Shown piece by piece: positions 29,860 through 61,780 of a DNA stretch of 64,000 nucleotides. Below the pieces are notes generated by a model. The model saw nothing but the letters and a program-made list of their open reading frames with translations. It did no database searches and had not been told where the DNA came from. The stretch's first letter is position 1. The number at the start of each line of letters is the position of its first letter. The stretch comes from Aedes albopictus (taxonomy: Eukaryota > Arthropoda > Insecta > Diptera > Culicidae), in contig NC_085137.1 in assembly GCF_035046485.1 (NCBI RefSeq), forward strand, positions 503,429,187 to 503,493,186, in the 5' to 3' direction. The position numbers were made by a program, and so were the translations under genes.

Positions 29860-30818
29860 ATAAGGGATAATAAATATAGATTAAGAGTATAATCCTGTTC
29901 TAGGAACTACGGCATAAGAAAATGCATGAAGGAGTACCCGCATAACCATGAACAGTACTAGTACTGTTTCCCATAGCATCCGCAACAGCTTGAAACAATA
30001 TCTGAACCATTTCGTATAGCACCCGAACGAACAATAAACCAACTCCACCACAAACTGTTTTGACAGTGTGGTAAACGGTAATTGGGGAAAATACAATATG
30101 TGGAATAGGCGGTTAAGTTCAGTTACCATAAAAAATCGTCGATTTTCTCGAACAAAATTTCACGCGTACAGTTTGTCAAACGGTGGACATACTATCAATT
30201 TTTCTTCCCAATTAATTGTAAGACAAACGGCTCGAAAACAGTTTGACCATAAAATTGAAATGAAACCGAATAATGTATGTGTAACTGTGTACTTATGATG
30301 CTTTATGGTATTCAAACTCTATAGCATACTGTTCCATCGCCGTTAAATCATTAAAAAAATAATGTAATGAAGGTAATAAAAATGAATAAAATAAAAATAC
30401 TTTACTTCAGCAGTAAGGGAAATGCAAGTAAATCGTGTTATGTAAGGTAAAAACATAAATGTTTAAAGATCATAAATACAGCTGGATATTAACCCACCGG
30501 TCTTATTTTGATCTTTCCGCATTATTTTACCATTATTACATTTTATGATCTGCTAACATTTCTCCAACTACTGGCGTAGAGTACCTTCACCTAAAATTAA
30601 TTCAAATTAATAGTGTTTTTATTTAATAAATTTGTGTGTTGTGTCGGCTGCCGTTCGGCTTGTTGATTTATCTGCTCTCCGAAATTTGTTCTATTTTTAA
30701 TTGAAATTGTCCTGTAAAATCGTCTAAGTCATTTTGTTAAAAGTGTATTCGCCAGTAAATAGATTGTGCAATACCAGAACTTTCAATCGATTACCGCTCT
30801 TTGTTAAAACCTTTGATT
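29860..30818. other. Unclassified AT-rich DNA
   Basis: About 960 bp with no open frame above background and no paired repeats. Confidence 0.35.
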
Positions 30819-32075
30819 AAGGTGAAACATCAAGAAAGCCCATTGCAATTTTGCATACAAACTTTAGAGGCACAAATCTGACGAACAAAGCATCAAACCA
30901 AGTCGCACTTGATTATCCTGGCTTTGCTCACTTGCAAAAAGAGGCAGCTTTTCAAAATCGACCGCATTTGTTTACGAATTTTTAAGATTTGTGCTTTTGA
31001 AAACGTGAGTAGGGGTGCAAGTCGGCCATTGTGGCAACCATATTGGTACTCTCTGAAGTTTCTCCTTAAACTGTGCGTCGAAATAATGGAATGCAAAAAA
31101 TGCCTTCACGACATCGTAACGCGAGAGCAACCGTTCATCTATTGTAATGGCTCGTGTTCTCGAGTATATCACGCGGCATGTGTTGGACTGAACGATGACG
31201 AGCTTGCCGTTGTGTCACCGCCAAAGAGGAACAGTTTTTGGCTCTGCGATGATTGTTTTTCCGGATTTCTACAGTGGAGAGAGGATCAGAAAGCATCTAC
31301 CGAACCGAACCAAAACGAATCAAAGTGTGCGTTGCAACGCGACGTGGATGAGCTCAAATCTAAAGTGGAAGCAATAATGTCTGTTCTTGGTTCAAGTACT
31401 ACATGCCATTCGGATAATACTTCTGATATGCGACATTCAACTCCTCGTTCATCGCCGCAACGGAAAACGATCTCGCACACTGCAATGTCACATGTACCCG
31501 ATGTTACACGATCACCACAGTCGGCCTCATCTTTAAATACCTCTGATGATAGTTTCGCCTTATTGTTGACAAATATCGATGCCAGTGTATCTGAGACAGA
31601 CGTTCAACGATTGGTTTCTCGATGTTTGGGTGCCTGCGACGGTGATTGTAGAAATGTACGAAAATTGGTTCCGCGATGGGTCGATTACGATAATTTGGAT
31701 TATGTTTCATTCAAAGTAGTTCTAAGCAAAAAATGGAAACCTTCCGCTATGACATCGTCCACTTGGCCAAAAAATGTTAAGTTTCGAGAGTTCGTTAGAA
31801 AACAATGCACATGGAAACCCGATATCATGTAAATTTGATGTACTATATGTAAATGTTAAAAACGAATGTTGTTTGCTTATATTTTTTGTTTGTAATATGT
31901 AAGATAAGGCCGTTTGATGATGATATATGTGAGATTCTGTTATGTGTTATTGGTTTAGTATTTAGTACCTACTGTCTTTGTTGTATTGGATCTTAGAATA
32001 AGTATATTCAATTAGACTGAATAATGTCCGTTGAATTAATTAAATAAATACAAATAAATACAAATAATAAATGGG
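30819..32075 (+). mobile_element. ORF1-only non-LTR retroposon with PHD-finger protein
   Basis: A 5' UTR of about 265 bp (begins TTAAGGTGAAACATC; a second copy of this UTR lies at 47583-47820) is followed by one ORF1, a 3' UTR of about 240 bp and a tail of AAATAAATAC-like repeats ending near 32075. No reverse transcriptase lies between ORF1 and the tail, so this is an internally deleted, non-autonomous copy. The right edge comes from the tail; no TSD was found. Confidence 0.65.
31086..31832 (+). CDS. Retroelement ORF1 protein with PHD-type zinc finger (248 aa)
   Basis: Begins MECKKCLHDI. An N-terminal Cys4-His-Cys3 finger (residues about 3-56) shows CxxC, then YCNGSC, YHAACVGL and LCDDC, the spacing of a PHD finger. 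A short coiled-coil-like helix follows (about 82-100), then a Ser/Thr-rich linker (about 104-155). The C-terminal domain of about 90 residues contains LLTNIDASVSETDVQRLV and LDYVSFKVVLSK and ends KQCTWKPDI. Family knowledge: CR1-group non-LTR retrotransposons often carry PHD fingers in ORF1, a probable RNA/chromatin-binding protein. The frame also stays open for 59 codons upstream, but that part matches the UTR copy at 47583, so the inner ATG is preferred. A domesticated host gene is the alternative. The frame is intact. Confidence 0.72.
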   Translation: MECKKCLHDIVTREQPFIYCNGSCSRVYHAACVGLNDDELAVVSPPKRNSFWLCDDCFSGFLQWREDQKASTEPNQNESKCALQRDVDELKSKVEAIMSVLGSSTTCHSDNTSDMRHSTPRSSPQRKTISHTAMSHVPDVTRSPQSASSLNTSDDSFALLLTNIDASVSETDVQRLVSRCLGACDGDCRNVRKLVPRWVDYDNLDYVSFKVVLSKKWKPSAMTSSTWPKNVKFREFVRKQCTWKPDIM

Positions 32076-35507: not shown

Positions 35508-36575
35508 GGTTCTGTCACATTCGCCCGAAAACCATTCGCCCGAATTCCAAATGCCCGAATGACAAACGCCCGAATGTAACAAACGCCCGAAAAGACCATT
35601 CGCCCGAAATACCATTCGCCCGAAAAGACCATTCGCCCGAAAGACCATTCGCCCGAAATCCATAATAGTCTTGAAACACTTTTCTGAAACAATTTAGGCG
35701 TCGTCCAGGCGTATGGCTGAACGCCATTTTCAACTAAAAGTAACTGCAACCTTTTTCGGTTTTTGTTTTTTTTTCAAACATAGTCTGATTTAAGACATAT
35801 ATTGTTACAAACATTTTCGGCAATATAGCTGTGGAAACATTTATTGGAATTGTCCCTTCTTTTGTTAATAGGCTTTTCTTTCTAGTTTCACCTTCAAGGA
35901 AATTAAATTTAATTTGATGTAATTTTTTACCAGAAATTTGCCCTTCTTTCAATCATGAATTGTTCTTTAAAGTACCTCTGTTATGGAGAACCTTGACGTT
36001 TTATATTTTTACAACTTCTGGATTCCAAACATGGTTTCAAAAGAACAGCTTGTTTTAATAAGAATGCTGTATTCTCACGATTTTTATGTTTTTTTTTCTA
36101 CATCCGTTAGCTCACGCGTTTTAATTTTTATCAATTATTGTTCATTTAAACGAAACGTAGTTATTCCGACTACATCAGTCGTGAACACTTTCAACTTAAA
36201 TGTGTTGACTACACTGTGCTGAAGTTTTGTCTTTATCCTTTCGATCAACAATGCCATAACAATTAATTAGCTATTATGAGCAAGCAATTAGGCCTTCTTC
36301 AAAACGTAGGTCGTTCTTTCAAACTAAGCTAATATGATTATTATTGGCGCCAATCAAGCTGTTCTTGCGATTGGTCGGACACTAAGTACATCATGCGTCT
36401 GTCCTTAAACTTCCATCATGGCAAACCACAAAAAAAAATGCATGGAATCGGTGGATCACTTTCGGGCGAATGGTCTTTCGGGTGAATGGTCTTTTCGGGC
36501 GATTGGAATTCGGGCGTTTGTCATTCGGGCGTATGTTATTCGGGTGAATGGTTTTCGGGCGAATGTGACAGAATC
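35508..36575. mobile_element. MULE-like fold-back element A with TTCGCCCGAA array ends
   Basis: 1068 bp. Each terminus is an array: nine GCCCGAA-type motifs at 35520-35660 and seven in inverted orientation at 36458-36570, about 15-17 bp apart. The outermost bases are GGTTCTGTCACATTCGCC on the left and the complement of GATTCTGTCACATTCGCC on the right. A perfect 9-bp TSD GTTGATATT lies at 35499-35507 and 36576-36584. A 9-bp TSD and long TIRs fit Mutator-like elements. The interior is AT-rich with no transposase, so the element is non-autonomous. Frames through the array give a spurious FGRMVFRANG repeat. Confidence 0.88.
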
Positions 36576-41010: not shown

Positions 41011-42031
41011 TATTATTATTATTATTATTATTATTATTTATTAGAGACACTTTATACCGAAAAGGTGCATTCGTGTCTGATTATTTAAAGTACATATACA
41101 GCTATGACATAGTTTTTTTCTTCGATCTCGTGATCACTTTCCAAGAAGAATCGGAATTCTGAGCATTCTCGTTGCACGATCGCTTGGCTAAATTTTCGTC
41201 TCGCGTTTCATTCGTTGACTCGGTTGACAACCGCCGCTTCGCAGAATCGGGCTCCGGGTTTACATCGTTTTCGTTTTCAACATCGGTATTTCCATCATCG
41301 TTATCGTCGTCATCATCATCACCACCGTCTCTATCAGATCTAGCCGCTTCTGGTTCAATTGTATCGCACTGGTCATCGTCGTTCTTCTGTCCCTTGACCG
41401 AGCTGGATGGTGTTTTTTGTTGCTTTTGTTTAGTGCTACGGATCGCTGGTTGATCGTTATTGTTGGGATAGCTAACGTACGTGCCGTGGCTGTTCACAAC
41501 AATATGCGACGGTATCGGTTTATCCAACCGCATCCGAACGACGCGTACACCATTGGGTATCCCCGAGAAGAAGTTCTTCCACACTTCGTTGTGAATGGAG
41601 ATCACTCTCCCGTACTGCTGCAAGTGGTCGGCGATGGAGTTGTTGCACATTTGCGGCGGAAGATCATGAATCCTCACGGTCGTTGTTGGTCCATCCACAT
41701 ATACCGGGATGTAGTATTTTACTCCCTCGAGAACGAAGCAGTGTTGTAGGTGATGCAGTTTTTGTAGCCGTGGGGCTACACCAGGGTCGTTCATCTCGAT
41801 AAATAGGCAGTTTTTAATGTTATGGATCTGAATGCTCCTAACATCGGCCATATCAAGTTTTACAAAACACTTCAGGAACTTTTCCACTTCTTCCAAAGCG
41901 GGGCGCCTTGGCAAGACACCAAAATCCACTACCAACGTGTTTTTTCTGTATTGTGACATCTTGCATCGATACAAGAGCAACCAAAGGAAAGGAAAAAAGA
42001 CGTCTGTCGCGCACGAAGAGTGGTTGTCAAC
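41011..42031 (-). mobile_element. ORF1-only retroposon, complete, 14-bp TSD
   Basis: A 1021-bp insertion in minus orientation: a 72-bp 5' UTR at its right edge (begins GTTGACAACCACTCTTCG), ORF1, a 3' UTR of about 60 bp, and a (TAA)n tail at 41011-41040. Perfect TSD TCTAACTTCGAAGT at 40997-41010 and 42032-42045. It has 5' and 3' ends and the TSD but no ORF2, so it must have been moved by another LINE's enzymes. Structure and ORF1 resemble LOA/Jockey-group LINEs. Confidence 0.88.
41102..41959 (-). CDS. LINE ORF1 protein lacking its zinc knuckles (285 aa)
   Basis: Starts MSQYRKNTLVVDFGVL. Residues about 5-165 form an RRM-like nucleic-acid-binding ORF1 core (VYVDGPTTTVRIHDLPPQM, then IADHLQQYGRVISI and VWKNFFSGIPNGVRVV). 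After HGTYVSYP, where related ORF1 proteins continue into CCHC knuckles, the sequence jumps to a linker. It contains an acidic run (DGGDDDDDDNDDGN, about residue 207) and a basic C-terminus ending RSKKKTMS. The frame stays open upstream to 42172, but that part is host flank beyond the TSD, so the ATG at 41959 is the start. Intact and free of stops despite lacking its knuckles and an RT partner. An alternative is a newly exapted gene, but the TSD and tail favour a retroposon. Confidence 0.78.
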   Translation of the reverse strand: MSQYRKNTLVVDFGVLPRRPALEEVEKFLKCFVKLDMADVRSIQIHNIKNCLFIEMNDPGVAPRLQKLHHLQHCFVLEGVKYYIPVYVDGPTTTVRIHDLPPQMCNNSIADHLQQYGRVISIHNEVWKNFFSGIPNGVRVVRMRLDKPIPSHIVVNSHGTYVSYPNNNDQPAIRSTKQKQQKTPSSSVKGQKNDDDQCDTIEPEAARSDRDGGDDDDDDNDDGNTDVENENDVNPEPDSAKRRLSTESTNETRDENLAKRSCNENAQNSDSSWKVITRSKKKTMS

Positions 42032-42264
42032 TCTAACTTCGAAGTGACACAGAGCTTTTGTGGGTTTTAAAGGTGCAACTGACCAACTGAAGAAAATCTG
42101 GCGAAGTGGAAATTGAACGGTGATGAAGAACAATTCAGCTTGCTGATGTTTAGGTGCGGTTGCTTTCGTCATACGGAAATGAGAAAATTTGTTAAGTCGT
42201 TAGTGGAGTAAGTATTCGAATTCCAGTGCTATCGACTGGTTATCGATAGTCTACATCTCTTGAT

Positions 42265-42483
42265 GAACATTTGAAAAGGGCCTATCTGCTTTTTGTAAAC
42301 AAACATGTTTCTGTCCCTGTAGGGTCCATCTGCATCCACCCACGCACATCAACATCCTTACTATCTGTTGAAGAACACTCTTTCTGATAAGGGTGTTGAT
42401 GTGCGTGGGTGGATGCAGATGGACCCTACAGAGACAGAAACATGTTTGTTTACAAAAAGCAGATAGGCCCTTTTCAAATGTTC
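42265..42483. mobile_element. 219-bp near-perfect palindrome
   Basis: Arms of about 90 bp: GAACATTTGAAAAGGGCCTA and complement, with only one or two mismatches, around a loop of about 30 bp. Probably a young fold-back MITE. Flanking CTCTTGAT / GTCTAGAT agree only in part, so the TSD is not certain. Confidence 0.82.
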
Positions 42484-42484
42484 G

Positions 42485-43927
42485 TCTAGATCTTTTTGCT
42501 TTCACTTAATGAGTCATTGGCAAAGGTAAGTTGGAATATCTTGAATTATTTTCCACGATATGACGGGAATTAGCGCATATGATGAAGCAAATTTCCAACC
42601 TATTACATTTGAATATGTAAAAAAAATCTCGATCTTCATTTGTAATCCCTTCCCACTCGGGTCACACTGCGTCTAATGAAGCTTTGACCCATTGGCTCGC
42701 TCGGTCTATAAAGCCGCGCGTGGTGCTATGCGGAAAAGCGCGAAGGCGAAAGTGAAAAATTCGGTCACCAGAGTGTGCAAGTTGATGACGGGGGTAGCCG
42801 CAATTTGTATCCAAAAACGAAACAAAGAAAACCTCCGATCCGAAGAAAGTGTTTTCCTCCCGCCCGCCTGTGTGTGTTTGTGCTGAAAACAAGCCCACCA
42901 ACATCGGCGCGGTTCGGCAATGCCTCCATCCAAACGATGATTAGAGACTTGCGCGTTTTGATCGCTCATTAGGGGAAAATTAGTGCCAAATCCACATTCG
43001 GCGGACCTCACTGACCAGTGCAGTCAGTTTGGGCGGAGAAAACTCTATTTGGCACCTGATCGATTGGGCGAAATTGGCGAAAAAACCGATCGTTTACGGT
43101 GGTGATTGCCGGAGTGTGGGCCCACGCGAGAGGGGCCCAACGAAAGATGCGAATGGGCGTATGCAAAATCAGGGCAAACTGCCCGACGCAAGATCACCTT
43201 TGTGAATCGAATGTTTTACGTTTTCTTTATGTTATTTTTTTTTTCTTGGGAACATTGATTCCCGAAGTGCCCTGCCCACAAGGCTTGTTATTCAAACCGA
43301 GAGCTGGTTGAAATGTGTGCACTAAATAAGATGATGAGCAAACAGCAGTTTCAAGTGGGCAAACGCGGGGAAAAAGTTATGAACAGTAGTTGATCACTTT
43401 TTGCTTTCGAATCAATGGAAGTACCTTAGACGGAATCAACGAGTGTATTTGATTTTAATGGTCAAAAACTGTCATTATGATATCTAAAATGATTACCCAA
43501 TTTAGGTGTCAGTTTTTAATGTAGAAATCGTCTCTACATGAAAACACACCGGGGAAACTAGGAGTACTCGAGGAACTAAGAGTATGTTCGAGCGGTTGCC
43601 CGTGTGGTTAAACCAAAATCGGTACTAAATACTTGAATATTTCATTCAACTGAAACCTCACAGTTAAAAAATGTTACAGCATATCACCTGTAACAAAAGG
43701 ACCCCGTCATATCGCACACATTTTTCCATCTGCTTATAAATTTACAGCTTGCTCTCAGTATGAAGCTTGTATTCAACTTTCCATACAAGAAATTCTTTAA
43801 TGTAAAATTCAGTGAAATAAAATAGAAATTTATATGTTATTTATTTTTTGCAACTTCTCATCGTAATAGGCCATTTTACCTTACGCAAATCTGACAGGAA
43901 AAGGCCTACTTTCCCACACCAAATTAA
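42485..43927. other. Unique DNA with a TATA-like box
   Basis: A TATAAAG at 42707 sits in a GC-rich context (42690-43200), with short open frames on both strands but no recognised product. 43200-43927 is AT-rich and featureless. It could be a host promoter region, but nothing proves it. Confidence 0.35.
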
Positions 43928-44292: not shown

Positions 44293-44366
44293 TGTTGCGT
44301 AAACTACTATTACGTCTGGTGTAATTTTCAGAAAATTTTGCTGTGCTGTCTGATTAATATCCGAAC

Positions 44367-44444
44367 TGTAGGATCTAGTTAGCATAGCATTTAAGTTCTG
44401 GAAATTATGTCATTCTAATCCTTACCACCGTCCAAAACACTACA
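44367..44444 (+). repeat. 5' LTR, 78 bp
   Basis: TGTAGGATCTAGTTAGC ... CAAAACACTACA. Identical to 48375-48452 except for one base. The TG/CA ends and the position beside the primer site identify it. Confidence 0.9.
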
Positions 44445-44446
44445 TT

Positions 44447-44464
44447 TGGCGACGAGGATGGGAT
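44447..44464 (+). other. Primer-binding site, tRNA-Ser type
   Basis: TGGCGACGAGGATGGGAT starts two bases past the LTR. From memory, animal tRNA-Ser(GCT) ends ATCCCATCCTCGTCG plus CCA, which would pair over all 18 bases. Confidence 0.78.
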
Positions 44465-44810
44465 ACATTGGAGAAAAAATCGAGGAGAAATTCAAGAAGG
44501 AAGATTATCAAAATGTTTTCGGATGTTTGAGAAGCAGTTCAACTATTTCAAGTAATCTTTGTGGGCTTTGGTATCGCAGCAAGAGTCATTCACATTCTCG
44601 GGACCATCCTTCTTATGCAAGATTTCGTGCGTCAAGGAACGCGAGAGGGACGCTAAAAGTGCAGACCACCGCGGACAAGCAAATGGCTGTTTCCATGGTA
44701 TGTATTGTACACATGAGTAATTAGTGACAATGTGAATGATTGAGAAACAATTTTAATGGTAAACTGAGATCGCGAAAAGTTGTTCAGCCTGAAGTTTTTG
44801 ATTCGTGCTA

Positions 44811-45121
44811 GGAGGCCCGACGTGGTCGGGATGAACCTCCTCGTATATAGTGAGACCCGGGACGCCGGGATGCGCCTCACAGAGAGAAAAACTGAACGGA
44901 GGCCCGTTTGACGGGATGATCCTCCAAGTGAGACCCGGAAGATCCGGGATGGCTCTCACAGTGTCGCGTGTTGAGGCCCGGTCTTCGGGATGGCCCTCAA
45001 TATTTTCGAGAGACCCGTGAAATCGGGATGGCTCTCTCGAAAGAAGTTCAGTTCATTGAGGCCCGGATTCGGGATGATCCTCAAGTAAACAGAGAAACCT
45101 GTAGTGATCAGGATGAATCTC
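44811..45121 (+). ncRNA. Array of eight bulged RNA hairpins in the LTR-element leader
   Basis: Units at 44811-44840, 44850-44880, 44898-44925, 44928-44959, 44971-45000, 45007-45039, 45056-45084 and 45092-45121. Plan: outer stem, inner stem CCCG(N)...(N)CGGG, 3' bulge ATGNN, outer stem close. Outer stems vary with compensation: GGAGG/CCTCC, GTGAG/CTCAC, GGAGG/CCTCC, GTGAGA/TCTCAC, TTGAGG/CCTCAA, CGAGAGA/TCTCTCG, TTGAGG/CCTCAA, GAGA/TCTC. Inner stems also covary (CCCGAC/GTCGGG, CCCGT/ACGGG, CCCGGA/TCCGGG; CCTG/CAGG in unit 8). Odd units have G-C and even units A-T (A/C mismatch in unit 2) next to the inner stem, so the array is four dimers. The role is unknown; packaging, dimerisation or translation control of the element RNA are possibilities. 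Confidence 0.85.
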
Positions 45122-45564
45122 AGGAAAGCTCGAATCAATTACTGGGGGAACAATTTCGCTTTATGGAAAAAAATCTAAAATTGTTTGTCGGTTGTCATCA
45201 TCACTGTTGCTAACAAGGTTGGTAAGATGTGCAAAGGATTGACAGAAATAAATGATTTCGTACGTTTAGTCTTAGAAAGTGTTAAAAAGCAATCAGCTAT
45301 CCACTATACGGAAAACGACGGGAGCACTGCGGCACAAGAAAAGTGTGGTTGATCAGAAAACCATAGAAGAGAATAATTTCGAAACAACAGATGGATAGCA
45401 TGGTTGTATTTCATTGAACCATAGACACATTTTGTTTGAAGGAAAAAAAAACTCGAAGTTCAAAAGATTTTCTCTGGTGTGGAAGCATATGTAAAATTAG
45501 TAAACATACAAGTTTTGAAATGCATTTTATAAATAATGTGCTAATTCTATATTTAAAACTAATA

Positions 45565-46554
45565 CCGTAAAACGGGGTATCTTTGATAATGCGGGTAACT
45601 TTGATAGTGCGGCAGGCATTGTGTAATTTATCTTATAACTATGATTTTTTCAATTAGTTAAGAAAAAGGTAAACGTAATTCAATTATATACATATGAAAG
45701 TTCATCTTAGACGTATTTTCATTAAATTCTAGTTTATATACAACCTTTTGGACAAAAAATAAAAATTGTTGATATTTTTGTCATTTATCAACCCCTTCAA
45801 ACAATCTGCTATACGACTTCGTTACAACTATTTTTCCAATGAATGGACGCTTATTCTCGATAGATTCATCATAGTAGATTCCAAATCTGGCCTTGAATCT
45901 CTTAACGAAGTGTGTTTTAACGAAATGGAAGCAATTTTGTAAATTGGGATATTAATCTCCATACATTGATAAACGCCTAAAAGTATGCAATGTCCTTGTA
46001 ATTTCATGTAGATAAATATGTGTTGTTGAAAATTTGTTAATAAAACATTAAAAAAACTACCCAAAAAAAGAATACTAACCATGAATAACATGTAATCATA
46101 TGTTGATGTACCGTTAAGGATTTATTATTACAAAGGTAATGATTTTTGATAGCTAAATTTATTGTGTTTTGCACTCAATACTCCACAAACTCATTTTTAT
46201 ATGTAGAATTTAGTAAAAAATCAATGTTTTGATATAAAAATTCTATCTAATATATTCCACAAGCCTTCTCTCATCATGTTCATACTCCTAAGATTTCAAT
46301 GTGTGATTATTTTTTGGGATTTGATGTGTTTTTGGAGCATTATCAAAGTTACCCCAAAATGAAAATCTGATTTTCGGTTATATGAAAAACTAAAAGTTTT
46401 CCAAAATATTTCAGATTATCGAATCTTTTAATTGCAATTGATAACTAATACCCCAGTACTTGTTTTAAAAATATAAAACTCGGGGAAATACTGTTACATG
46501 TAAAAATATTGAGAAAATTCGCTGAAAAACTATCAAAGTTACCCCGTTTTACGG
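45565..46554. mobile_element. TA-flanked element with CCGTAAAACGGGG ends (990 bp)
   Basis: TIR CCGTAAAACGGGGTA and complement; TA at 45563-45564 and 46555-46556. Subterminal repeats of AACTTTGATA. Non-coding; TA target fits Tc1/mariner. Nested inside the LTR element. Confidence 0.85.
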
Positions 46555-46559
46555 TACTT

Positions 46560-47582
46560 TGAAACAAACATTCAAACATTTTTGGACTCGATGAAAAAAA
46601 AACAAACAATTTCTACTTTATTCTCTTAGACTAAAGTTCATGACCAGTAGTGGGTTGAAGCAGGGCGAAATTGTACAAGTAACCGTTATATTTTGAATAG
46701 TTTTATTCTATTGAACATTTGTATCTAGATCTGATAACATAAAATATTGTGCATTGAATATATTGCAATTATTTGTTTTATAAGTTTGAACTAAAATCCT
46801 AATTCAAAATAATTTTCCAGTCAAATTTAATTTATATTCATGAAAAAAAAAAAACAAATGCTGATTCAGTGTAATTGATTTATAGCTTTGGTTAAATATT
46901 AGACTTCAATGTACAAATCGTACGATGTACGATTGAAAAAAAAATCGTCAAAGACATATAGAAAACCAGTACTACAGTAGGTGGCGATACTGTTTACTTT
47001 TGTATATAACTATCAATTTGGTTAGGATCCAGAGGATCATGTCCTGTTGCTTCAATGTACTACACTGACAATGAATTATTTCATTCATAAGGAATAACGG
47101 TTTCAACAAAAAAGAAAAAAAAATCTTTGCAATAGAAACTACCATAAAATGCATAGCACGGTCCGCAAATATAAATAAAATTTGAATCGATTATGCAATA
47201 TATTTTAAGTGATGAAATATTAATATTTAAAGACCAAAGTATAATGATCTCGTGAAAAAACACAACCTAGTATGGTGGAATTTGCTTGAGGGGCACTTCA
47301 TGGGAATAAATTGAACAATGTTATCTAGGTTGGTCTTGTAAATTTTAGACAATTGCCAATAGCGTATTTTTGTGTCTGATACACATTTAATCACAAGATT
47401 TAACATGTGTATGAAACAAAATAACTGTTTATTCCATGGTGCTTTCAAACGAAGTTTAGTTAGTTGCCGTTTTGAAAAAGTTTCTCCGTTTTGATGCTCA
47501 GAAGATACAGCGTGCATTTAAACATTCATTTTCTTTTTCAACCTTTATTAAGACATTCGCAAACTATTTCATATTTCAATAT
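46560..47582. other. AT-rich interior of the LTR element
   Basis: About 1 kb of strongly AT-rich sequence with long A runs. Open frames stay below 100 codons and none resembles a retroelement protein. Confidence 0.5.
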
Positions 47583-47820
47583 TAAGGTGAAACATCATAT
47601 AATTCAATTTCAAATATTAATACTAACTTCAAGGACATGAATCTGACAAATTAGCAATGCACCAAAGTGCATTTGTTTAGTCTGGTCCCGGATCAGTTGA
47701 TCAGGGGCGTTGATCTATGAATTTTTAAGATTCAAACTCTTGAAAACATGCGTAAGATTATAAGTCAGCCATTTTGGCAGTCATGTGATTTGGATTCTTT
47801 AAAGTTAATTCTTAAGGTCG
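47583..47820 (+). mobile_element. Second copy of the PHD-ORF1 retroposon 5' UTR
   Basis: Matches 30817-31075 by eye (ATTAAGGTGAAACATCA, TGAATTTTTAAGATT, AAGTCAGCCATTTTGGCA) and stops just before the ORF1 start point. It lies inside the LTR element. Confidence 0.72.
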
Positions 47821-48357
47821 GTACACTGCTATTCTGGGATTGAAAATGTGAAAACAATACCGGTTTAGTTCTGCCGAAATGAGTACATACTGGAATAGTT
47901 ATCATTATGACAAGCATACATATACACCGGGAAATATCCCATTCCTCAACAAAATTTGCACATTCTAGCTGGTGTAAAAGGAGGAAAGAAATAGTATTTC
48001 ACAACAACCCGCAAGATTGAGATTGAGTTGTTAAATTCGAATAATCAAGAAGAAAAATAGCATGAGAAAAGCTAACTCTAAAATTGCAATCCTAGGAACG
48101 CCATGTTGTCGTAAAGGAAGAAGAACATTTGTATGTTTTAAATCATATTCATACGCTGAAGTTTATTGAGTAGGGACATGGTTGTTACACAATTTGAAAC
48201 TAGAATAAAATCAAACCAAAACTCAAATCTCCGCGTGAATCCAGTCCACAGAATAGAATCGACATGAAAATATTGAAGTCAACAACAATTAACTTCGACT
48301 ACTCATGTTATATATAAATGTTGATGTGAATTAAATACATAAATACATATAGATAAT

Positions 48358-48374
48358 AAAAAGAGGGGAGAGAA
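48358..48374 (+). other. Polypurine tract
   Basis: AAAAAGAGGGGAGAGAA directly before the 3' LTR, the expected plus-strand primer. Confidence 0.85.
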
Positions 48375-48452
48375 TGTAGGTTCTAGTTAGCATAGCATTT
48401 AAGTTCTGGAAATTATGTCATTCTAATCCTTACCACCGTCCAAAACACTACA
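48375..48452 (+). repeat. 3' LTR, 78 bp
   Basis: One mismatch to the 5' LTR; followed by the CGAAC target duplication. Confidence 0.9.
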
Positions 48453-48633
48453 CGAACATAACAGAAGAATAGACGGCTTTATTGTATGCATATCTTACAG
48501 ATCGGGGAATTATAACACATGAATCCCTAGTCATTAGTTCTGAGACTGTAACAACGGAAGCTGTTGTTGACAAGCACACATGCTCGAGGCGTGACACGCA
48601 AGACTGTCATCTCCAAGTACCAATATTCAAGTA

Positions 48634-59335: not shown

Positions 59336-61780
59336 GATTGTACGACATTTCCCCGAAAACCAGTTCCCCGAATGAAGTTTCCCCGAAAGTTTTTTCCCCG
59401 AAAAACGATTCCCCGAATGAACCGTTTCCCCGAAAAGACCATTTCCCCGAAATATGTATTAAACTTTTTTCAAAGCTGTTTTCTGATAAGTTTTCTGATG
59501 AAAACGATCTGGACGAATCATTCATTCATTGGAACGAAAAGGTAGGCTAGGCCAATGTGCCCGGAGGGAGAGGGGTGGGGTCTGAGATGATCATAAATGA
59601 GTCTACGTAGTTCATGGACAGCGCCTTAGCTTGCATGAGACACAAAAACTTGATAGTCGGCCAACTGACCATCCATGGCGCTCGCATCAATTTTGTTCGA
59701 GTTTCACGTTTGCCCACTACCGCCACCTAGTTGATGGTTAGCGGTTCTTTTAGCATTGGGCGAATATGTTTTTGTGGCTTTGATTTGAATCCAAAAATGT
59801 TCGAAGTGTTACGTCTGTTTGTCTGTGTTTTTTGGTATTATGAGCACCCTGGATTTTCCCTTGAGTCATTTTTCAAGACAAAATAATAATACGGAGGTTA
59901 TGACGTTTGCTCTTCTTCTGAACAAAGGTGTTTTTTTATTTGTTCTAATAGAAAATGATAGTGCTTTTAACTCAAAACACGCTCATCAGAGATTATCCCT
60001 TCTTCGATTCATAGACTGTTCTTTCGAGTGTTGTTGAATATTCAATCACTGAAAACGCTCTTAAAACATGTAATGAAAGGAGTCATCGAGGTTGAGGTAA
60101 TCTGCTAAAGATCATTATCAACATAAAAGATGTAGATTAGCTGTAACACGTGCGATACGGAAAATGTAAGATATGATCACAGAGAATAGACATCCAAGTC
60201 CAGTTCAGAAACTGTGTAAGGAATTTAACGGTCATTTGAAATCGGCAACACAAGTGGCAACATCGTGGCGCTGCAATCGGTTAGTTTCCCATACTAATTT
60301 AATTCACCACTTGAAATGTTTCAATAGATCGACATTCCAAGCTAAAAATATCACAGATGGCTCTTTTTTGTGTGGTAGTAAAATCAAATTTTCGCGGTGA
60401 AGAAACTGTTCCGGAACATGAAGTAAACACAAAACGTTGCCTTTTCAAACTATTCTTGATTTCTATTCACTAACTTTTCAAAAAACTATCCCGTTTTCTA
60501 ACAATTAACGTTTTTCGCGATTTTTCCATACAATTTGACAATTCTTGACTACAATGCTTCCGTGAGCTTGAGGAGAAAATTTTAGAAAGCTGACAACCGA
60601 GAGTAGCACAGACGATGCATTGAATACAAGCGATAGTGTCGCCGCCAGACTGTCAGCGCTGGAAACTAGATGCTATAAAAGTTCTTGCATGCAATTTTCT
60701 CTGCTGGCGCCAACTGATAGCAATCAATAAAAATGTACACAGCAATCAATCTAATCACCACTGACTGTGGCAATATGGTTTTCGGTGGCGTTAGTGTTTT
60801 CATCGTGTATTGGTTTGCAATCTCACTCAAGTAAAGATTCAAATTTGTTCTAGCCTGGATGTCTGTTTTCTGTGGTATGATTGCTTTAAAGTCACAGCAC
60901 AATTTGTATATGTATTTTTTGTTAATCGATGGATTATAGCCAAACTGTACTGAATTAACATTTGGAATCGTTTATGTTGAAAGAAGGGAGAATCTCTGAT
61001 GGCGATTCATACGATAACGCCCATAGACACTAGAACAGTTTGACACCAAAGAACAAAACATCAATATTAAATATACCAGCTAATTTGACTGGTACTTCTG
61101 ATGATAAATTCAACAGGTCAACTTGAAAGAACAGCCTATGTTTGAAAGAAGGGAAATTTATTATGAAAAGGTTATCAATCAGGTGAAGACACTAGGTCAA
61201 TGCCCATTCGGTCTACTGATCATCATTCAGCTTAACCCTCCTAAGATGTTACGCTAGACAACTAATAGACCTATGGACATTTACCAATACTTCCTACCTC
61301 ATCGTTTATACCCCGTGGATGACGCTATTATTGCCAGAAAACCATCTAGGTTCCACCCGTGCACATATATCCAAATAGTTAACTCTCTCATTTCCTTGAA
61401 GCTTTCGTGCAATGTATTAGGACATCGGTGAGCTGAATGTATGTATGGTGAAATGATATATTCTCCACTTAATTATCATACCTCGCAATGAATATTACAA
61501 ATGCCAAAATTCTGCCTAAAATAATAAGAATTTGTGAACGAAAAGTAATGTTTAGTTAACCCTATTGGGCTCATGATGACCCAGACAGGTTACGCTGTGC
61601 ATACGCAGCGTTGTGTGCTTCAGCTAATTCCCAAAGAAGGTTAAATGGCAGATTACATACACTTTTCGGGGAAACGGTAAATTTGGGGAAACATTTTTCG
61701 GGGAAATGGTACATTCGGGGAAAAAACTTTCGGGGAAACTTCATTCGGGGAACTGGTTTTCGGGGAAATGTCGTACAATC
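59336..61780. mobile_element. MULE-like fold-back element B with TTTCCCCGAA array ends
   Basis: 2445 bp. Termini begin GATTGTACGACATTTCCCCG and are arrays of seven TTCCCCGAA motifs on the left (59345-59455) and seven in inverted orientation on the right (61663-61770, one reading TTTGGGGAA). TSD ATCGGTGC at 59328-59335 and 61781-61788. The layout is the same as element A (35508-36575). The interior holds a PIF-MITE fragment (about 59530-59628), a CACAGA-family fragment (about 59690-59826) and the complete TCACAGAG copy 3. No transposase. Confidence 0.87.
60177..60875. mobile_element. TCACAGAG-family DNA element, copy 3 (699 bp)
   Basis: TIR TCACAGAGAATAGACATCCA and near complement (one end GTCTGTTTTCTGTGG); TSD TATGA at 60172-60176 and 60876-60880. 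In reverse orientation it aligns with both sides of copy 2 and lacks copy 2's nested element. The interior is non-coding. Confidence 0.88.

Follow-up and report, generated by a model that had tools for sequence, protein, structure and literature searches.

The closest described counterparts of the RNA discussed here are the packaging signals (psi) of retroviruses (MMTV, FIV, MLV, and HIV-1): structured leaders that hold a few unlike stem-loops and are usually located between the primer site and gag. In these signals, Gag reads unpaired purines or G, and zinc knuckles favor an exposed G next to a pyrimidine. For MMTV, the features read by Gag are reported to be single-stranded purines and the primer-binding site (PBS) (PMC8096270). 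In yeast, according to the portions of the literature covered, Ty1 packaging sequences lie in the 5'-most 580 nt, the terminal cis sequences of Ty1 and Ty3 suffice for mobilization in trans, and the zinc finger of Ty3 NC is needed for packaging (PMC4974528); the packaging sequences of both are described there as not precisely defined (PMC4974528, PMC11381356).

Non-coding LTR elements form another group of relatives. TRIM and LARD elements carry LTRs, a PBS, and a polypurine tract (PPT) (PMC10886601, PMC3532108, PMC3286476), which the parts of these articles covered name as all that is kept, with TRIMs staying under 1 kb (PMC10886601). The Culex element cqUNK represents mosquito non-coding LTR elements with PBS, PPT, 5-bp target-site duplication (TSD), and tandem repeats, while Mag-lineage elements have repeats in their 5' UTR that may be common to several families; the gypsy insulator, also with tandem leader repeats, is named in the same text, as far as its covered sections go (PMC3286476).

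The locus that we describe resembles each of these systems and departs from each. With retroviral psi it shares the structured leader, the interval between primer site and gag, and the stem-loops, but here a single bulged hairpin is repeated 6-10 times inside a closed domain, with putative binding by Gag. Trans mobilization via terminal cis sequences is common ground with Ty1 and Ty3, for which the accounts covered mention no hairpin array. The cqUNK/Mag repeats are likewise tandem, from mosquitoes, and in elements without coding, whereas RNA structure is not discussed in the sections covered; moreover, they were found with Tandem Repeats Finder, which leaves the present array unlisted, even at score 30. 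The insulator repeats (Su(Hw) sites) are DNA sites, whereas here the hairpin arms and a closing helix are kept paired, and unlike the TRIM/LARD inventory, the elements below keep a structured third signal as well. A literature search of titles and abstract openings, with most subscription papers outside its range, retrieved no description of such an array.

The window, i.e., the whole stretch of 64,000 nucleotides of the Aedes albopictus genome that was analyzed, contains a complete LTR retrotransposon of 4,086 bp (44367-48452) with two LTRs, TSD, PBS, and PPT, and with the array 3' of the primer site (Table 1). All eight bulged hairpins reported in the first-pass annotation are present at their place; that description was incomplete in that it lacked the closing helix P1, the inner helix P2, the 78-bp LTRs, the TSD, the PPT, and the nested insertion. 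The latter has inverted ends (CCGTAAAACGGGGTA) that are 96% alike and a G+C content of 28%. No open reading frame (ORF) of at least 110 codons between stops occurs in the element, none of eight window ORFs exceeds the Pfam cut-off (best ARMET_C, E 0.087), and no homologue was found for a 93-aa ORF across the array. The primer site is putatively complementary to tRNA-Ser(GCT), which together with the short LTR may hint at the Mag lineage of Ty3/gypsy. The LTR end and the first 11 primer-site bases (TTTGGCGACGA) are common to the copies discussed below; the following bases differ by family, the longer site being present in some copies only (the window copy among them), and primer choice may vary between families.

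Table 1. Features of the array-bearing LTR element (window coordinates)
Feature	Position	Strand	Remarks
Target-site duplication CGAAC	44362..44366	+	second copy 48453-48457
5' LTR, 78 bp, TGTAG...CTACA	44367..44444	+	99% to 3' LTR
Primer-binding site TGGCGACGAGGATGGGA	44447..44463	+	directly 3' of 5' LTR
P1 closing helix, 5' strand	44798..44809	+	8 bp + T.T mismatch + 3 bp
Hairpin unit 1	44811..44840	+	class G-C, bulge ATGAA
Hairpin unit 2	44850..44880	+	class A-T with A/C junction, bulge ATGCG
P2 helix, 5' strand AACTGAAC	44890..44897	+	
Hairpin unit 3	44898..44925	+	bulge ATGAT
Hairpin unit 4	44928..44959	+	bulge ATGGC
Hairpin unit 5	44971..45000	+	bulge ATGGC
Hairpin unit 6	45005..45041	+	bulge ATGGC
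P2 helix, 3' strand GTTCAGTT	45046..45053	+	
Hairpin unit 7	45056..45084	+	bulge ATGAT
Hairpin unit 8	45094..45121	+	degenerate outer stem, CCTG/CAGG inner stem, bulge ATGAA
P1 closing helix, 3' strand	45127..45138	+	
Nested insertion	45563-46556		26-bp terminal inverted repeats; inside LTR element
Polypurine tract AAAAAGAGGGGAGAGAA	48358..48374	+	before 3' LTR
3' LTR	48375..48452	+	

Other repeats and one ORF lie elsewhere in the window. The heptamer TCTCTTA occurs 134 times in 69-1012, short-period arrays of the CGCCCGAA / TTCCCCGAA type (partly in opposite orientation) are located at 35518-35663, 36459-36565, 59348-59452, and 61659-61768, and a 103-nt inverted repeat, 96% complementary with arms 27 nt apart, occupies 42258-42490. 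On the minus strand, 41102-42172 encodes a 356-aa ORF with no Pfam match, whose relatives are mosquito proteins labeled 'translation elongation factor EF-1 alpha/Tu', a label that looks doubtful. One protein encoded in the window matches an Ae. albopictus protein with 96% identity across 80% of its length. A stretch noted as similar, 30816-31069, turned out to be a dispersed repeat of ~250 bp in which no LTRs or array were found.

Each unit comprises an outer stem, a CCCG/CGGG inner stem, and a 5-nt 3' bulge ATGNN. The pattern CCCGN{3,9}CGGGATG has seven matches in the window, all in the array, where shuffles lead us to expect 0.02; unit 8, with its variant inner stem, falls outside this set and is degenerate (z -0.47, 58 of 200 shuffles folding equally well). 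A TGATCA palindrome (45105-45110; 45113-45116 region) overlaps the loop and inner stem of this last unit and could possibly act as a kissing site. Hairpin loops range from 4 to 7 nt, so that the spacing of the half-sites is variable, and the AUGs, one in every unit of the window copy, head short open frames of 4-61 codons.

When the eight units are compared with each other, 89.4% of 94 cells are paired against 78.4% after shuffling, and 12 cells are changed on both sides against 4.8 (0/500 shuffles reach either value); the number of further pair types (10 vs 8.1) is reached by 76/500. The 5' outer arms tend to match their own 3' arms best, with 40 of 40,320 permutations reaching the observed sum, a tendency that is weaker within classes only (40/576). 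Given an assumed dimer tree, parsimony requires at least one pair-state change at 7 of 13 pairs.

The array is not unique to the window copy. A search of the same genome gave 22 matches at 19 loci, each with 6-10 units (8 in 12 copies, 10 in five, 9 in one, and 6 in one, L051). In our own grouping of these, four families are non-coding and a fifth is gag-pol (Ty3/gypsy): F1 (window, L057, L058), F2 (L060, L062, L069, and L065, whose array partner is L047), F3 (L061, L063, L064, L066, L067), F4 (L059 alone, resembling F1 over much of its length), and the coding family B (L068, L070-L074). Queried by tblastn with the coding-family gag, RT, and integrase, all 11 non-coding elements tested gave nothing (L061 and L065 lay outside the test), L070, L071, and L073 proved to be coding, and L068 has an internal deletion (L072 and L074 outside). 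Three ORFs of L073 hold, in order, gag-asp protease (below its cut-off), RVT_1, RNase H, and rve, i.e., the Ty3/gypsy arrangement of protease, RT, RNase H, and then integrase. The Gag ORF of this family has a CCHC knuckle (C-x2-C-x4-H-x4-C) and a relative named K02A2.6-like, and related Ae. albopictus gag families match it at about 45%. Here, too, the array lies between primer site and gag, where it had been proposed to look for it in coding relatives.

An identical 5-bp TSD flanks 12 of 15 elements as trimmed (exceptions L059, L064, and L071), and in 7 of the 15 elements with a detected LTR pair, the LTRs are 100% alike over the matched stretch. At 2.4-8.3 kb, the non-coding elements are not TRIMs; being kilobases long, with LTR, PBS, and PPT and no coding found, they are LARD-like. 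With F1 (window) compared by blastn against F2, F3, and B, matches fall on the LTR/primer site, where those to F2 extend up to 166 nt, and on the array region plus at most about 110 nt 5' of it; F2 and most of F3 also match at the 3' end. Unlike families resemble each other at the DNA level only at the LTR/primer site, over the array region, and, if non-coding, at the 3' end.

Seen across these copies, several generalizations of the first-pass annotation hold within narrower limits. The ATG, said to be invariant, is so in the eight units of the window, whereas among the 19 arrays it is kept in 154 of 161 units: unit 1 has ATA in six copies, including the coding family, and unit 7 has ATT in one. 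Strict alternation of the two classes is a property of the 8-unit arrays; the coding family departs from it by repeating units of the unit-4 type. Growth by dimers likewise fits the 8-unit arrays (for the eight units of the window copy, the odd/even split is the best of the 35 possible 4/4 splits), but not the single repeats of unit-4 type or losses such as the six-unit array of L051. The A/C junction mismatch of unit 2 recurs in every copy having that unit (17/17 distinct rows).

Constraint on the array is graded. As means over ten family pairs (L051 left out, L047 kept in F2), divergence between families amounts to 2.0% for the AUG, 3.2% for the inner stem, 4.7% for P2, and 6.2% for the outer stem, against 10.9% for the bulge NN, 22.1% for spacers, 24.4% for loops, and 25.1% for P1. 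The AUG and the inner stems hence come out as the most constrained parts. Random, uncompensated change in the stems, the alternative raised beforehand, is not what we find (3-6% vs 22-24% in loops and spacers), and the diverged loops show that a simple recent transfer does not account for the array. Measured in 90-base windows, divergence inside the non-coding group is 5-8% for the array and 34-45% for its flanks (44471-44740 and 45191-45460); when this group is compared with the coding family, it amounts to 6, 12, and 23% in the array windows and to 42-61% in the flanks where alignable. The array is the best conserved stretch of related coding and non-coding elements.

Covariation, claimed for the stems, is seen among the eight units, but among copies it mainly concerns P1, which is paired in 251 of 301 cells (slid controls 44-137); when whole 3' strands are exchanged among copies, 6 of 5,000 trials reach the observed value. 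For the whole structure, cells changed on both sides and paired cells exceed the shuffles (reached by 0/500 and 2/500), whereas the number of pairs with change on both sides (5 vs 4.5, reached by 249/500) and of further pair types (26 vs 28.1, reached by 479/500) does not. RNAalifold marks two pairs as covarying, each of them within P1. The hairpins covary only weakly between copies, and copy covariation supports P1; it is the conservation against diverging loops, together with the comparison of unit with unit, that supports the hairpins. Selection on the array as an RNA structure in a retroelement leader, as first proposed, is well supported by these comparisons.

P1 encloses all units, and P2 pairs spacers 2 and 6, giving the layout P1 [units 1, 2; P2 [units 3-6]; units 7, 8]. 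An 8-bp P1 is reached by 50 of 4,000 shuffles, its 11 pairs with one mismatch by 8 of 4,000, and the 8-bp P2 by 1 of 4,000. Predicted pair probabilities in the window copy are 0.90-1.0 (P1) and 0.41-1.0 (P2), and both helices are predicted in all five groups, with means of 0.89-0.98 and 0.88-1.0, respectively. In the full-length fold of the window copy, the outer stem of unit 2 and units 7 and 8 face competing pairings (0.05 to 0.36). When a 1-kb stretch is folded, the array AUGs are unpaired at 0.76 against 0.42 for other AUGs, those of units 5, 7, and 8 being only partly open. Among the stretches folded, the domain alone is unusually stable, on both strands (z -4.5 on plus, -5.5 on minus; neighboring stretches +1.1 and -0.6 on plus). 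Because G.U and A.C cells are equally frequent across copies (41 and 41) and the minus-strand z is lower, the fold does not single out the functional strand. Prediction plus conservation show P1 as the helix that closes a multibranched domain 3' of the primer site.

How far does the array reach? All 18 junction matches of a query with the coding-family LTR and primer site lie upstream of arrays (its other matches being six 3' LTRs and two 3' fragments), and the window LTR adds two solo LTRs with TSDs. A 17-nt junction pattern matches 34 times, and never in the reversed control; the matches comprise the 18 known arrays, L084, and 15 further loci, of which about 960 bases each were read. A second LTR family (L084, L087, L088, L091, L093) has 12-14 GGGATG and 0 CATCCC per leader, where shuffles average about 0.3, and in each leader the window-built model detects two or three hairpins (E 1e-7 to 4e-4). 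Its units are looser since only some GGGATG sites form two-stem hairpins (by a simple rule, 7 of 13 in L084). No array follows 11 of the 34 junctions within the bases read (0-1 GGGATG each), so that the array is lineage-specific and not required by the primer site. Ten of these loci have other LTR types; the eleventh, L086, ends its LTR like the second array family, yet shows only one GGGATG in the part read.

Searches further afield stayed empty. In the window, Rfam at its gathering score gives only a tRNA, and a relaxed search of the array region gives one match far below its cut-off (E 0.47). Three patterns hit 19, 5, and 6 stretches of viral contigs, with one match each; a covariance model run on these 30 loci revealed no array; of its seven matches with E not above 1, five are by construction the 5-stretch pattern set. 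One of the loci, L030, is a viral contig that carries long ORFs and lacks an array. The dimer pattern is found in neither viral nor genome contigs (0 each), and four isolated genome matches outside arrays, among the matches listed of 123, hold no array according to the model (reversed control 4). A kink-turn, a self-cleaving ribozyme, and protein coding were dropped on sequence alone.

Among the functions suggested at the outset, packaging or Gag binding seems to fit best. We consider it about an even bet (roughly 0.5) that the array is a cis-acting RNA domain recognized by Gag for packaging, based on its position, its conservation, and its sharing in trans. In the genomic RNA of this short-LTR Ty3/gypsy lineage, P1 is predicted to close a multibranched domain of 8-10 bulged hairpins, and next to the C:G inner stem of each hairpin an AUG is left unpaired. 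These AUG bulges would be bound by the CCHC zinc knuckle of Gag, many low-affinity sites could sum to selective packaging, and non-coding families would retain the domain as a ticket into the particles of a coding relative. Having several insertions, the non-coding families must have been mobilized in trans; because the shared LTR/primer site and 3' end already serve promoter, priming, and integration, RNA recognition would fall to the array. Packaging is further favored by the array's place before gag in the coding family, the 19 arrays in one genome, the graded constraint that keeps AUG and stems rather than loops, the prediction of P1 and P2 in five groups with P1 paired despite sequence change, the CCHC knuckle in the coding-family Gag ORF, and the 12-14 GGGATG in the equivalent place of the second LTR family. 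It is weakened by stems that hardly covary between copies, by the 11 of 34 junctions whose elements can do without an array, by the ATA in unit 1 of the coding family, and by a fold that does not indicate the functional strand.

The main rival, which we consider rather unlikely, is an element for nuclear export, stability, or localization, with a host RNA-binding protein reading the hairpins so that unspliced RNA reaches the cytoplasm or germline, much as NXF1 reads the CTE. Coding and non-coding elements would need it equally in cis, and it would account for a multivalent domain, but the interval between primer site and gag is the usual place of packaging elements and nothing points to a host protein. 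Should the array instead act as DNA, either as a tandem row of zinc-finger protein sites, like those of the gypsy insulator, or as a downstream promoter for the 78-bp LTR, the conserved CGGGATG core and the known regulatory roles of tandem leader repeats would make sense; this is nonetheless a long shot, as the half-site distance varies with loops of 4-7 nt, both arms are kept while loops diverge, the arms of the eight units change together, and P1 pairing persists through sequence change.

Control of translation before gag (decoy AUGs, shunt, or internal entry) is very improbable. It can draw on the AUG-headed frames of 4-61 codons in every unit of the window copy; however, the array is kept equally well in the 11/11 non-coding elements tested, where there is no gag to regulate, making decoy AUGs, another early suggestion, a poor fit, and unit 1 of the coding family has ATA. 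Least probable of all is a mutational origin, in which RT template switching perfects inverted repeats and shuffles modules free of selection. Unit number does vary (6, 8, 9, 10), and co-packaged RNAs could recombine modules, but palindrome correction would erase an asymmetric bulge that is in fact kept, and loops and spacers have diverged by 22-24% where stems have not.

Returning to packaging, the array is probably a tag by which the proteins of the coding element recognize their own RNA and on which non-coding parasites hitch a ride. How LTR retrotransposons choose RNA for packaging is poorly defined even for yeast Ty1 and Ty3, as far as the covered portions of the literature tell (PMC4974528, PMC11381356). 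The mosquito elements offer a natural deletion experiment, with unlike elements sharing the LTR/primer site, the array, and partly the 3' end; they name a compact RNA motif and a way to pair non-coding families with helpers, in the form of a repeat that standard tandem-repeat software passes over. More tentatively, the array might be a multivalent RNA barcode in which the number of AUG-bulge hairpins sets Gag affinity, a module of competing coding and non-coding elements that grows or shrinks by the unit. If so, parasites and host element would race by hairpin copy number, and the two LTR families in one genome would represent two stages of its divergence.
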